Part shown: piece after piece, positions 3,076 to 25,071 of the stretch
Numbering within the stretch: the stretch's first letter is position 1
Layout of the letters: the number at the start of each line of letters is the position of its first letter
Source of the DNA: Porphyromonas loveana
Lineage (GTDB): Bacteria > Bacteroidota > Bacteroidia > Bacteroidales > Porphyromonadaceae
DNA: 64,000 nt
Direction of reading: 5' to 3'
NCBI RefSeq assembly: GCF_003096695.1
Contig: NZ_QEKY01000007.1
Span: 1 to 64,000, forward strand
The notes under the pieces: model-generated
Database searches by the model: none
What the model was told of the DNA's origin: nothing
What the model saw: the letters and a program-made list of their open reading frames with translations, nothing else
Program-made: the position numbers and the translations under genes

Positions 3076-3678
3076 TTAGAAACGGACACCTACGCCTACG
3101 AAGAAATCGTAATTGCGAATGGAGAAATCCGAAGATCCTTTCTGAGCTACGTTGAGAATGCCGTGATCGTAACCCACTTGGAAATAATAGCGTTGGTAGC
3201 CCAATGCTGCAGCGATGCCTAAGCCCATATCGAAACGCTTGAGAGCACCCTTATCTCCAAAAGCATCTACAGAAAGATCTGAGTTCTTGAGTGTGGTGTT
3301 ACCTGCCACCCCGTATGCCAAATAAGGACCTACTTCTAAAGAGACGGTCATATCCTGTGCAAAAGAAGCACGGAAACCGGCATTGATGGGTACCTGCAAA
3401 TAATGCAGACGACTCCTGGCTGCATCATCCTTTGCTCCCTTCATTGTATAAGCCACGCCCGGTGCGATATAAAAACCGTCCTGACCAATGGCAAATTCGG
3501 CAGCACCGCCCACACGGAAACCTGCCAACATAGAGCCAGTTGCAGAAACGCTACCAATCTTTGTAGTCATGTTGCTACCAACGAAGTTAGCATCCAAACG
3601 GAAAGTCGGACGACTCTGTGCACTAACAATACCGATCGAAGCGAGCACGAGGGTTGCTGCTAAAAATAACTTCTTCAT
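3076..3678 (-). CDS. Outer-membrane beta-barrel protein, paralogue
   Basis: A 200-residue barrel with the signal peptide MKKLFLAATLVLASIGIVSA, giving a mature start at QSRPTFRLDANF. The open frame extends 38 codons further upstream, but that part is not a signal sequence and overlaps the promoter, so the ATG at 3678 is preferred. Strand patterns (LQVPINAGFR, FDMGLGIAAALGYQRYYFQVGYD) and the ending FFVGVGVRF parallel the neighbour at 2252-2923 closely, pointing to tandem duplication with divergence. Likely located in the outer membrane; function unknown. It has its own promoter and a strong hairpin after the stop. Confidence 0.78.
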   Translation of the reverse strand: MKKLFLAATLVLASIGIVSAQSRPTFRLDANFVGSNMTTKIGSVSATGSMLAGFRVGGAAEFAIGQDGFYIAPGVAYTMKGAKDDAARSRLHYLQVPINAGFRASFAQDMTVSLEVGPYLAYGVAGNTTLKNSDLSVDAFGDKGALKRFDMGLGIAAALGYQRYYFQVGYDHGILNVAQKGSSDFSIRNYDFFVGVGVRF

Positions 3679-22486: not shown

Positions 22487-24235
22487 ATGGAATCAGACAA
22501 ATTATTGGAACAAGTGCGTGCCAAAGCTCGGACGTGGCTTGGTTCGGGATATGATGCCTCCACACAAGAGGCCGTACGGGCCATGCTGGACAATGCAGAC
22601 ACGACGGAGTTGGTCGATGCTTTCTATCGCGATCTTGAGTTCGGTACGGGTGGCTTGCGCGGCATCATGGGTGCCGGTAGCAATCGCATGAATCGTTATA
22701 CGGTGGCTGCTGCTACACAGGGACTCGCCAACTATCTCTTGCGAGAATTTGCCACGTTGCCGCAGATCAGCGTGGCTATCGGCTACGACTGTCGCAACAA
22801 TAGTCGCTTCTTTGCCGATACGACAGCGGCGGTCTTCTCGGCCAACGGCATTCGTGTCTATCTATTCGAGGAGCTTCGTCCTACACCGGAAGTATCCTAT
22901 GCCATCCGCAAGCTCGGATGCCAGAGCGGTGTAATGGTGACGGCTTCGCACAATCCCAAGGAATACAACGGCTACAAAGCCTATTGGGAAGATGGTGCGC
23001 AAATCATTGCTCCGCACGACCGCAATATCATTGCTGAGGTCAATAAGATTCGTTCGATAACCGATATTAAGTTCGAGGCCAATCCAGCTCTCATCCGGAT
23101 GATAGGGGAGGATATAGACGCTCCCTTCATTGCCGACGTCAAGGCGCTCAGTCTCTCGCCCGAAAGTATCGCCCGCCATCGCGATATGAAGATCGTCTAT
23201 ACACCCATTCACGGTACGGGCGGTACCATCATACCCCGCGCATTGCAAGAATACGGCTTTGCCAACATTATACATGTCCCCGAACAGGATGTGACCAGCG
23301 GAGACTTCCCCACCGTTCATTCGCCCAATCCTGAAGAACCGGCGGCCTTGGCGATGGCTATAGCAAAAGCTGAAGAGACAGGTGCCGACCTCGTTTTGGC
23401 AAGCGATCCCGATGCCGACCGTATTGGTGTGGCTGCTCGCAACGATCGAGGAGAGATGGTGCTTATCAACGGGAACGAGATTTGCGCCATGCTTATCTAT
23501 TATTCCATCATGCGTCGCAAGGAGCTGGGCGATCTGCAGGCTGATGACTACATCGTCAAGACCATTGTAACGACCGAATTGGTACGCGACATAGCCGATC
23601 GTGAACACGTAACCATGTACGATTGCTATACCGGCTTCAAATGGATAGCAGGCGTTATCCGTGAGAATGAGGGACGTCGTCGCTACATAGGTGGCGGAGA
23701 GGAGAGTTACGGCTTCCTCTGGGAGGACTTCGTTCGTGACAAGAGTTCGGTCTCGGCCTGTGCACTCTTCTGCGAAATGGCAGCTTGGGCTCGCGACAAG
23801 GGGCTTACCGTCTATCAGCTCATGCGCAGCATCTACCTTTCTTATGGTTTCTATCGCGAGAAAGGCGTCAGCGTCGTGCGCAAAGGCAAGTCCGGAGCGG
23901 AAGAGATCGAAGCGATGATGAAGCGCTATCGCGAGCATGCTCCCACCGTCTTGGGCGGCTCTGTTGTAAGCGAAGTGCTCGACTATGCCACGCTCGAAGG
24001 CAAGGATGTAGCCAATGGCGAGACCTTCACCCTCGACATGCCCACGACGAGCAATGTGCTCCAGTACAAGACCGAGGACGGCACCAAGGTATCAGTGCGT
24101 CCTTCCGGCACGGAGCCGAAGATCAAATTCTATATAGGTGTGCGCATCCCCGTCCAAAACGAAGAAGAATTGGACCGCGCCTACACCCTCGCCGACGATA
24201 AGATCGCCGCCATCCTCCGCGACCTCAACGTCTGA
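22487..24235 (+). CDS. Phosphoglucomutase/phosphomannomutase family protein
   Basis: A 582-residue alpha-D-phosphohexomutase, which interconverts hexose 1- and 6-phosphates through a phosphoserine. All four signatures are present: GTGGLRGIMG at 53-62, the phosphoserine loop TASHNP at 152-157 (Ser154), the metal loop DPDADRIG at about 305, and the phosphate-binding RPSGTEPKIKFYI near the C-terminus, plus the sugar-specificity loop GGEESYGFLWED. The length fits the Bacteroidetes/Firmicutes type with about 580 residues (like B. subtilis PgcA). Glucose versus mannose specificity cannot be settled by eye. It probably feeds envelope polysaccharide synthesis. It has its own promoter and no partner downstream. 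Confidence 0.93.
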   Translation: MESDKLLEQVRAKARTWLGSGYDASTQEAVRAMLDNADTTELVDAFYRDLEFGTGGLRGIMGAGSNRMNRYTVAAATQGLANYLLREFATLPQISVAIGYDCRNNSRFFADTTAAVFSANGIRVYLFEELRPTPEVSYAIRKLGCQSGVMVTASHNPKEYNGYKAYWEDGAQIIAPHDRNIIAEVNKIRSITDIKFEANPALIRMIGEDIDAPFIADVKALSLSPESIARHRDMKIVYTPIHGTGGTIIPRALQEYGFANIIHVPEQDVTSGDFPTVHSPNPEEPAALAMAIAKAEETGADLVLASDPDADRIGVAARNDRGEMVLINGNEICAMLIYYSIMRRKELGDLQADDYIVKTIVTTELVRDIADREHVTMYDCYTGFKWIAGVIRENEGRRRYIGGGEESYGFLWEDFVRDKSSVSACALFCEMAAWARDKGLTVYQLMRSIYLSYGFYREKGVSVVRKGKSGAEEIEAMMKRYREHAPTVLGGSVVSEVLDYATLEGKDVANGETFTLDMPTTSNVLQYKTEDGTKVSVRPSGTEPKIKFYIGVRIPVQNEEELDRAYTLADDKIAAILRDLNV

Positions 24236-24412
24236 TCTCCGTCCTCCCAATTCGCAGTCGGATAGGAAGTAAATGCTAATCATAAAAAGCATTTGCTTTC
24301 TACCCGATTTTATTATTATGTTGCACTTACTATAGGAAAATATAAGGCTTGGTACAAGAGGAACCTAGTTTGCATTTTGGAGGCCAGAGGAGTTACCTTT
24401 TTGTTACCTTTG

Positions 24413-24735
24413 TGTGTCGATTAGCGGTGTTACGATCAGTAAATAGTTGAATTTCAGTGTGCAAAAGCGAACAGAATCCAAAGAAATATGAAGTAAATGA
24501 TGAAATGAAGGCAATGATGAATAGCAGACTTATGTGCGAGGGGGGGTACATCCCTTTCTTTTTAACACTTTTCTTTCGGTATGTAATGGTGTGGATTCCG
24601 GCTTTGGCCGAGATCCCTTATCTGTGATAGTCTCCCGGACAGTGAATAAAATGCGATAGAACTTCCCCGAAATTCTATCCAATAGCATCAAGTCCCCGTT
24701 GCGTTCAGGCACGAACGCAACGGGGACTTTTTGTT
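24413..24735 (+). ncRNA. Candidate orphan RNA
   Basis: A perfect -7 box TACCTTTG at 24405-24412 is followed, about 280 bases later, by a perfect 17-bp terminator stem (24690-24706 with 24713-24729) ending in T runs. Between them there is no convincing gene but there is local structure, for example GATAGAA/TTCTATC at 24655-24661 and 24673-24679. It is far enough from pgm (177 bases) to be a separate transcript. It resembles no RNA family that I recognise; an untranslated RNA or a 40-residue peptide message (24505-24627) are both possible. Confidence 0.35.
24690..24735 (+). terminator. Strong intrinsic terminator
   Basis: AAGTCCCCGTTGCGTTC (24690-24706) is perfectly complementary to 24713-24729 around a 6-base loop AGGCAC, followed by TTTTGTTTTT. 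It must end a rightward transcript, either a long pgm tail or the candidate RNA before it. Confidence 0.85.
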
Positions 24736-24791
24736 TTTGGCTCGTTCTCAAGCCTTTTGGGGAGATAAACTATATAAAGGTGAGTTCTAAA

Positions 24792-24865
24792 CTTTATAAA
24801 GATCGGATGCAAAGATTATAATTATCAGAAACGATCTTTATAAAGATTGAATCTGAAGATTATAA
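24792..24865. repeat. AT-rich direct repeat with palindromic core
   Basis: Two copies with a 44-base period: CTTTATAAAGATCGGATG... at 24792 and CTTTATAAAGATTGAATC... at 24836. Over 29 bases they match at about 24 positions, both ending in AAGATTATAA. Each begins with the perfect palindrome CTTTATAAAG. The arrangement suggests paired protein-binding sites. Confidence 0.5.
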
Positions 24866-25071
24866 AGTTCACCATCTAAATGGATAAAGATTGTTTTTCG
24901 ACTCCTTGAATCACCTTTCCGGAATCGTTTTGACCACCGAACGACCTTCAAAAAGCGGCTTATTTGGACTGAATCTAAACAACCCTTCGGTGTTGAAAAG
25001 TTTTTTGGCACCTAACCTATTTGGCGATTGCATTGTTGTCCTAAAAGAGGATAAAGGAGGAGGGATAGAAG

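Follow-up and report, generated by a model that had tools for sequence, protein, structure and literature searches.

The unit under study lies on the plus strand of the window, the whole 64,000-nucleotide stretch of Porphyromonas loveana DNA that was analyzed. It is flanked by an open reading frame called pgm, which ends at 24235, and by a long convergent frame on the minus strand from 25356, which an earlier sequence-only reading ascribed to a V-ATPase. The landmarks given in that reading are all present, namely the promoter box TACCTTTG at 24405–24412 (inside TTTTTGTTACCTTTG at 24398–24412), a hairpin with 17 pairs at 24690–24729 followed by TTTGTTTTTG, and a 40-codon frame at 24505–24627. 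It had taken the unit for an orphan, which is wrong, as the genome carries 34 copies.

The unit is almost certainly one copy of a dispersed, repeated cassette of ∼620 bp that, as far as searched, is restricted to the P. gingivalis clade. Conservation between copies begins at the promoter box and drops after ∼25015. Within these limits the order is fixed: a −7 promoter box, a predicted transcript of ∼310 nt, a terminator, palindromes arrayed every 22 bp, and a 3′ module that contains a palindrome resembling a Fur box. The window copy comprises the following features.

24398..24412, plus strand: promoter −7 box TTTTTGTTACCTTTG; bases farther upstream are not conserved between the P. loveana copies
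24413..24735, plus strand: transcript body to the T run, with a start predicted from the position between box and terminator in aligned copies
24505..24627, plus strand: short open reading frame of 40 codons and a stop, open here in 26/26 aligned copies, with no Pfam or PADLOC match
24690..24735, plus strand: intrinsic terminator with a 17-bp stem and T run, from the fold and the aligned copies
24768..24870, no strand assigned: AT-rich palindrome array, with units spaced 22 bp apart across the family; in the window copy it goes unreported by Tandem Repeats Finder
24959..24980, no strand assigned: Fur-box-like palindrome, degenerate in the window copy (CTTATTTGGACTGAATCTAAAC)
24986..25015, plus strand: 3′ end motif TTCGGTGTTGAAAAGTTTTTTGGCACCTAA, where conservation between copies falls off

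Copy number and distribution of the cassette

A self-search of the P. loveana genome (G000; 2.28 Mb, 39 contigs) gave 22 matches, and a profile built from the copies raised the count to 33 places, 29 of which span nearly the whole profile and 4 of which are partial. One more near-full copy at 205.3 kb of contig C1 was detected by two models and confirmed by the profile, bringing the total to 34 cassettes (30 near full length). About 20 kb, or 0.9% of this genome, therefore consists of one repeated, ordered cassette. The mean column identity among the copies is ∼62–66%. Four alignments were used, comprising 18 of the 24 copies then known (A1), 26 of 29 five-prime hits (A2), 32 of 33 copies (A3), and all 30 of the 30 found (A4).

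Among 38 genomes of the family, a model of the 3′ module (E ≤ 1e-4) matched 34 places in P. loveana, 33 in G006, 43 in G008, and a single weak one in G011; the other 34 genomes gave none. A few of the hits counted for P. loveana and G006 lie outside cassettes, for example in a module upstream of dnaA. Both published clpB EMSA primers match G006 exactly, which identifies it as P. gingivalis; the other six primers are absent from the fetched loci, and most of their targets lie outside these. Of its 33 hits, 30 reach E < 1e-9, and P. gingivalis carries about 30 cassettes. Judged by a DnaA 99% identical to that of G006, G008 is probably P. gulae; two of its 43 hits are cut at contig ends, and 10 of the 43 were examined. 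P. loveana represents a further species (DnaA 89% identity). At a laxer threshold (E ≤ 0.01) within the genus, weak matches appear in G011 (three), G007 (one), and G010 (one).

A model of the 5′ part found 29 places in P. loveana, 6 in P. gingivalis, 9 in G008, and 1 weak match in G023. The 6 hits in P. gingivalis versus 29 at home indicate that the transcript body has strongly diverged between species. In the P. gingivalis cassette the order is the same but the sequences differ: the terminator stem is another one, the arrays are of the TATATATAAATCGAAAACGATT type, and the palindrome is GGAATCATTCC. Beyond the clade, the pgm neighborhoods of 80 named relatives gave a best E of 0.18, and phage and plasmid collections gave no cassette match. 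Pattern scans of IMG/VR returned 18 exact hits to the palindrome pattern, with profile matches that extend scarcely past the pattern (mostly about 20–60 nt, best E 0.001), and none to the end motif.

Comparison with known repeats

The cassette is of a known general kind, the chromosomal repeat, with an unusual fixed architecture; our literature searches found no description of it as a unit. Bacterial repeats of the REP/BIME and MITE types likewise occur in many dispersed copies with palindromes. Unlike these, the cassette also has a promoter, an open reading frame, and a terminator of its own, arranged in constant order with candidate binding sites of two kinds.

The closest comparison is BrickBuilt, a MITE of P. 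gingivalis described by Klein 2015 (PMC4596501) with 23-nt units (1 to 22.8 of them), 19 copies in strain ATCC 33277, and IS5-like termini such as GAGACCTTTGCA. Like the cassette, BrickBuilt is dispersed in P. gingivalis and P. gulae and has a tandem-repeat core with flanks, for which promoter activity was reported (PMC4596501). About 30 cassettes occur in the same genome. An identity of the two was rejected by period and by termini. The cassette period is 22 and not 23 in all three species, and the nine terminal 12-mers in Table 2 of Klein, searched as exact matches, rarely lie near cassettes: they occur in 2 of 30 P. gingivalis loci of ∼4 kb (L230 and L244) and in 1 of 10 G008 loci (L258). 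Two of the nine have one exact hit each in the P. loveana loci.

At locus L230 (∼1.81 Mb in P. gingivalis), a cassette fragment (profile match 3694–3392) abuts a BrickBuilt-type terminus at 3382, suggesting that one repeat was inserted in or beside the other. According to Klein, 22-nt direct repeats were reported for strain W83 by Nelson 2003, their exact locations not being identified (PMC4596501). These are probably the array of the cassette.

Promoter box and terminator

Allowing up to two mismatches, the promoter box together with its T tract matches nowhere else in the window (0.12 expected). Upstream, no −33 element could be recognized at its normal distance; if the TTTG within the T tract is disregarded, the closest one stops 25 nt short of the box. 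A scan for σ70-type promoters was set aside as unsuited to this phylum.

Among the aligned copies, 26 retain the box and 30 the terminator. In the terminator stem, 14 of the 17 pairs show double changes, and 97.1% of the cells are paired. None of 500 shuffles scored as high on four measures and one of 500 did on a fifth; slid controls were all much worse. In these alignments the stem is preserved by compensatory changes, as expected for a transcription unit bounded by an intrinsic terminator. The proposal of a self-contained transcription unit in the sequence-only reading is supported to this extent, except that the unit continues to ∼25015 and is repeated.

A partial cassette without the RNA part (L181, contig C6 at 11591 in P. 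loveana) lies directly after an acetyl-CoA hydrolase/transferase gene, and its terminator probably ends that gene.

Transcript body and small reading frame

RNAalifold on aligned copies recovers the terminator only. Outside it, no conserved structure was found in 18 copies, and the 5′ module (158 columns, 26 copies) contains no conserved pairs. A local stem noted earlier at 24655–24679 is present in the window copy and absent from the consensus structure of either 18 or 30 copies. The suggested comparison with 6S RNA and other Rfam families gave 0 matches in the window at the gathering thresholds; with permissive ones, the top score within 24200–24900 was AniS, with 23.1 bits against the 50 required. 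The idea of a regulatory or housekeeping RNA is weakened by these results, by the diverged body, and by the open reading frame; in its favor, the window copy folds somewhat better than its shuffles (z −2.25, 3 of 100).

Two stretches of the 5′ part are conserved in the 26-copy alignment, GTAAATA..TGAATATCA and GCAATGATGAATA, and one of them is the start of the reading frame. In all 26 aligned P. loveana copies, an ATG frame of 30–51 codons starts ∼80–95 nt after the box and is open. Its mean length is 44.5 codons versus 16.3 ± 3.3 in shuffles (0/300). At the G006 and G008 loci, the longest frames average 44.4 codons versus 24.4 ± 3.0 (0/200), with 24 of 40 loci testable and the same frame not established; the 16 others were dropped because no box or terminator was found automatically. 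Owing to the shared ancestry of the copies, such shuffle tests overstate significance.

Substitutions within the frame are somewhat conservative (BLOSUM −0.56 versus −0.93 ± 0.09, a null lowered by stops), which speaks for purifying selection on the peptide. Synonymous changes are not in excess (synonymous fraction 0.089 versus 0.083 ± 0.008), so that no constraint shows at synonymous sites, and 22 copies tested earlier by alignment columns lent that frame no coding support. Ten of the peptides have no Pfam match and five no PADLOC match. By the shuffle tests the frame is kept open beyond chance, as in a small-protein gene, with the kinship of the copies still contained in the statistic. We regard the transcript as mRNA-like with moderate confidence.

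Palindrome array and 3′ module

At a shift of 22, the self-identity of the array is 0.432 in P. loveana (31 of 33 copies taken), 0.504 in P. gingivalis, and 0.529 in G008, versus 0.20–0.38 at other shifts. Tandem Repeats Finder, applied to 40 loci of G006 and G008, reported periods of mostly 22 or 44. As 22 bp make up roughly two turns of the helix, the palindromes would all be exposed on one face of the DNA.

The 3′ module consists of a palindrome followed by TGTTGAAAACTTTTTTGGC. With up to one mismatch allowed, P. gingivalis has 32 occurrences of the palindrome TTTRGAATNATTCYAAA, of which cassettes contain 30, and no occurrence of its reversed control. The same pattern is found at 43 places in G008 and 22 in P. 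loveana, not sorted into those inside and outside cassettes. The P. loveana consensus ATTTAGAATGAATCTAAAC shares 16 of 19 positions with the Bacteroidota Fur box ATTTAGAATTATTCTAAAT from Riemerella anatipestifer (PMC5609570); the window copy is more degenerate. This match makes the palindrome a candidate Fur operator. The Riemerella Fur box was reported with four promoters chosen for EMSA (PMC5609570). In contrast, the cassette palindrome was not seen at an iron-gene promoter here, and its places in P. gingivalis are almost all cassettes.

In G011, two loci (L273 and L274) carry Fur-box-like palindromes of 23 bp, of the type TTATTTAGACTTAGTCTAAATAA, which are nearly or fully symmetric in L273. 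They show no match to the cassette profile beyond a weak model hit.

The module upstream of dnaA

A solo 3′ module, TTATTT-N11-AAATAA followed by TGTTGAAAA, lies 335–337 nt upstream of dnaA in all three clade species (L269, L281, and L282), with model E-values of 3.3e-6 in P. loveana, 6.7e-4 in P. gingivalis, and 0.0016 in G008. In G011 (L283), a similar arrangement, in which the second motif is altered, lies 320 nt upstream of dnaA. Har, the Fur orthologue of P. gingivalis, binds a 240-bp fragment of the dnaA promoter (PMC4222909). The primer of this fragment starts downstream of the palindrome (PMC4222909), so that the experiment does not demonstrate binding of Har to the palindrome. A cluster of DnaA boxes was looked for in the 700 nt upstream of dnaA and not supported; in this region TTATCCACA is absent from all three clade species, and TTWTCAACA occurs just once or twice in each.

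The cassettes of P. gingivalis are weakly clustered with respect to their distance from position 1 (KS p 0.025). Sixteen of the 30 strong ones fall within 595 kb (940–1535 kb), in the chromosome quarter opposite position 1 (scan p 0.035, with the window chosen post hoc). With the origin assumed near dnaA, 18 of the 30 copies point against replication, which is no clear strand bias.

Genomic neighbors and loci shared between species

The 5′ neighbor points away from the cassette at 25 of 33 P. loveana copies (p 0.0046; 33 of the 34 copies counted), at 20 of 30 in P. gingivalis (p 0.10), and at 5 of 9 in G008 (9 of the 10 fetched loci). In P. loveana, the 3′ neighbor points away in 18 cases and towards the cassette in 15. 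As the 3′ neighbor has no preferred direction, the operator-like site does not simply belong to the promoter of that gene; nor is it located at the promoter of the transcript itself. Frames overlapping the cassette by at least 150 nt were excluded from neighbor calling. Open reading frames of at least 100 amino acids, which need not be genes, overlap the cassette at 10 of 24 copies.

Few cassette positions are common to the species. Eleven of 33 P. loveana copies have any neighbor in common with the 40 fetched loci, and only one (C6 at 11591, with L245) has both sides in common, within flanks of 2–3.5 kb. In P. gingivalis, ∼205 kb separate pgm from the V-ATPase region, so the junction in the window, which contains the cassette, differs from that genome. 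A G008 cassette (L263) likewise sits between flanks that lie 65 kb apart in P. gingivalis, and for another (L265) only one flank was found there. At the P. gulae-like locus L262, one flank matches sequence adjoining the P. gingivalis cassette L243, though on the opposite side of it; the other flank matches at L255 over only 699 nt (89.6%), which could be another repeat. With one match short and the other on the opposite side, recombination between copies is only suggested.

Homology between L260 and L226 and between L257 and L238 ends ∼25–50 nt upstream of the T tract of the box. No terminal inverted repeats joining the two ends were present in three copies examined, and no clean empty site appeared in the few loci tried, where the flanks were apart or one was missing in the other genome. 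Transposition is therefore unproven.

Interpretation of the cassette

We tentatively read the cassette as a small, mRNA-like gene tied to a protein-binding chromosomal site and dispersed since the species split, a reading to which, taken whole and resting on sequence comparison, we give slightly less than even credence. The promoter would produce a ∼310-nt mRNA-like transcript for a peptide of 30–51 amino acids that is free to vary in sequence, and the terminator would stop transcription before the array and the operator. The array could be bound by a multimeric DNA-binding protein with its sites on one face of the helix, and the operator-like palindrome by a Fur-type dimer. Each cassette would thus be an insulated chromosomal site for a nucleoprotein complex. 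Its copies may have spread since the species split, some of them at rearrangement junctions.

Alternatively, the cassette could be a parasitic, non-autonomous repeat that spread without benefit, its promoter, reading frame, and terminator being kept only through joint spread. The scarcity of loci common to the species (11/33 sharing a neighbor, one on both sides), copy numbers that differ among near relatives, and the coincidence of some junctions with rearrangements are consistent with such an element, as is the identity of only ∼62–66% among the home copies, which points to a spread that is old or repeated. However, compensatory changes in the terminator, the openness of the frame, palindromes whose period stays fixed while their sequence is specific to each species, and the lack of terminal inverted repeats in the three copies examined argue against it, and we consider a parasite rather unlikely.

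A replication-linked chromosomal site, which titrates or positions an initiator or nucleoid protein, would account for the 3′ module upstream of dnaA in three clade species and the related arrangement in G011, for the AT-rich, helically phased array, and for the weak clustering in P. gingivalis. We find this improbable, given the near absence of DnaA boxes upstream of dnaA, a clustering window picked after seeing the data with an origin assumed near dnaA, and copies without clear replication bias (18/30 against). A family of regulatory RNAs acting in trans by base pairing would likewise explain why promoter, terminator, and 5′ stretches are conserved and why the window copy folds better than its shuffles (z −2.25). 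Against it stand the 158 columns of the 5′ module without conserved structure, the poor conservation of the body in P. gingivalis, the lack of an Rfam family, and the coincidence of one conserved stretch with the start of the frame; we consider such a family similarly improbable.

The reading as a gene tied to a binding site can be carried further, to a clade-specific set of 30-odd control sites that share the dnaA-upstream module. Each peptide or its transcription would modulate the bound complex, and the dispersed system would link heme or metal sensing to chromosome replication or organization in P. gingivalis. We offer this as speculation with a slim chance of being correct. P. gingivalis, which also has the cassette, is a major oral pathogen in gum disease. 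If a Fur-type regulator binds, about 30 chromosomal addresses would exist for a heme or metal regulator, unlike an ordinary promoter regulon. Even a parasitic cassette may account in part for certain rearrangement junctions between these species and for certain small "hypothetical" reading frames.

A separate, post hoc observation concerns three P. loveana cassettes that lie divergently upstream of dnaK, grpE, and clpB (C2 at 45.7 kb, C5 at 73.2 kb, and C21 at 14.1 kb; L196, L188, and L202, respectively). In P. gingivalis, the expression of these three genes has been tied to RprY, which bound the dnaK and clpB promoters (PMC3646045).
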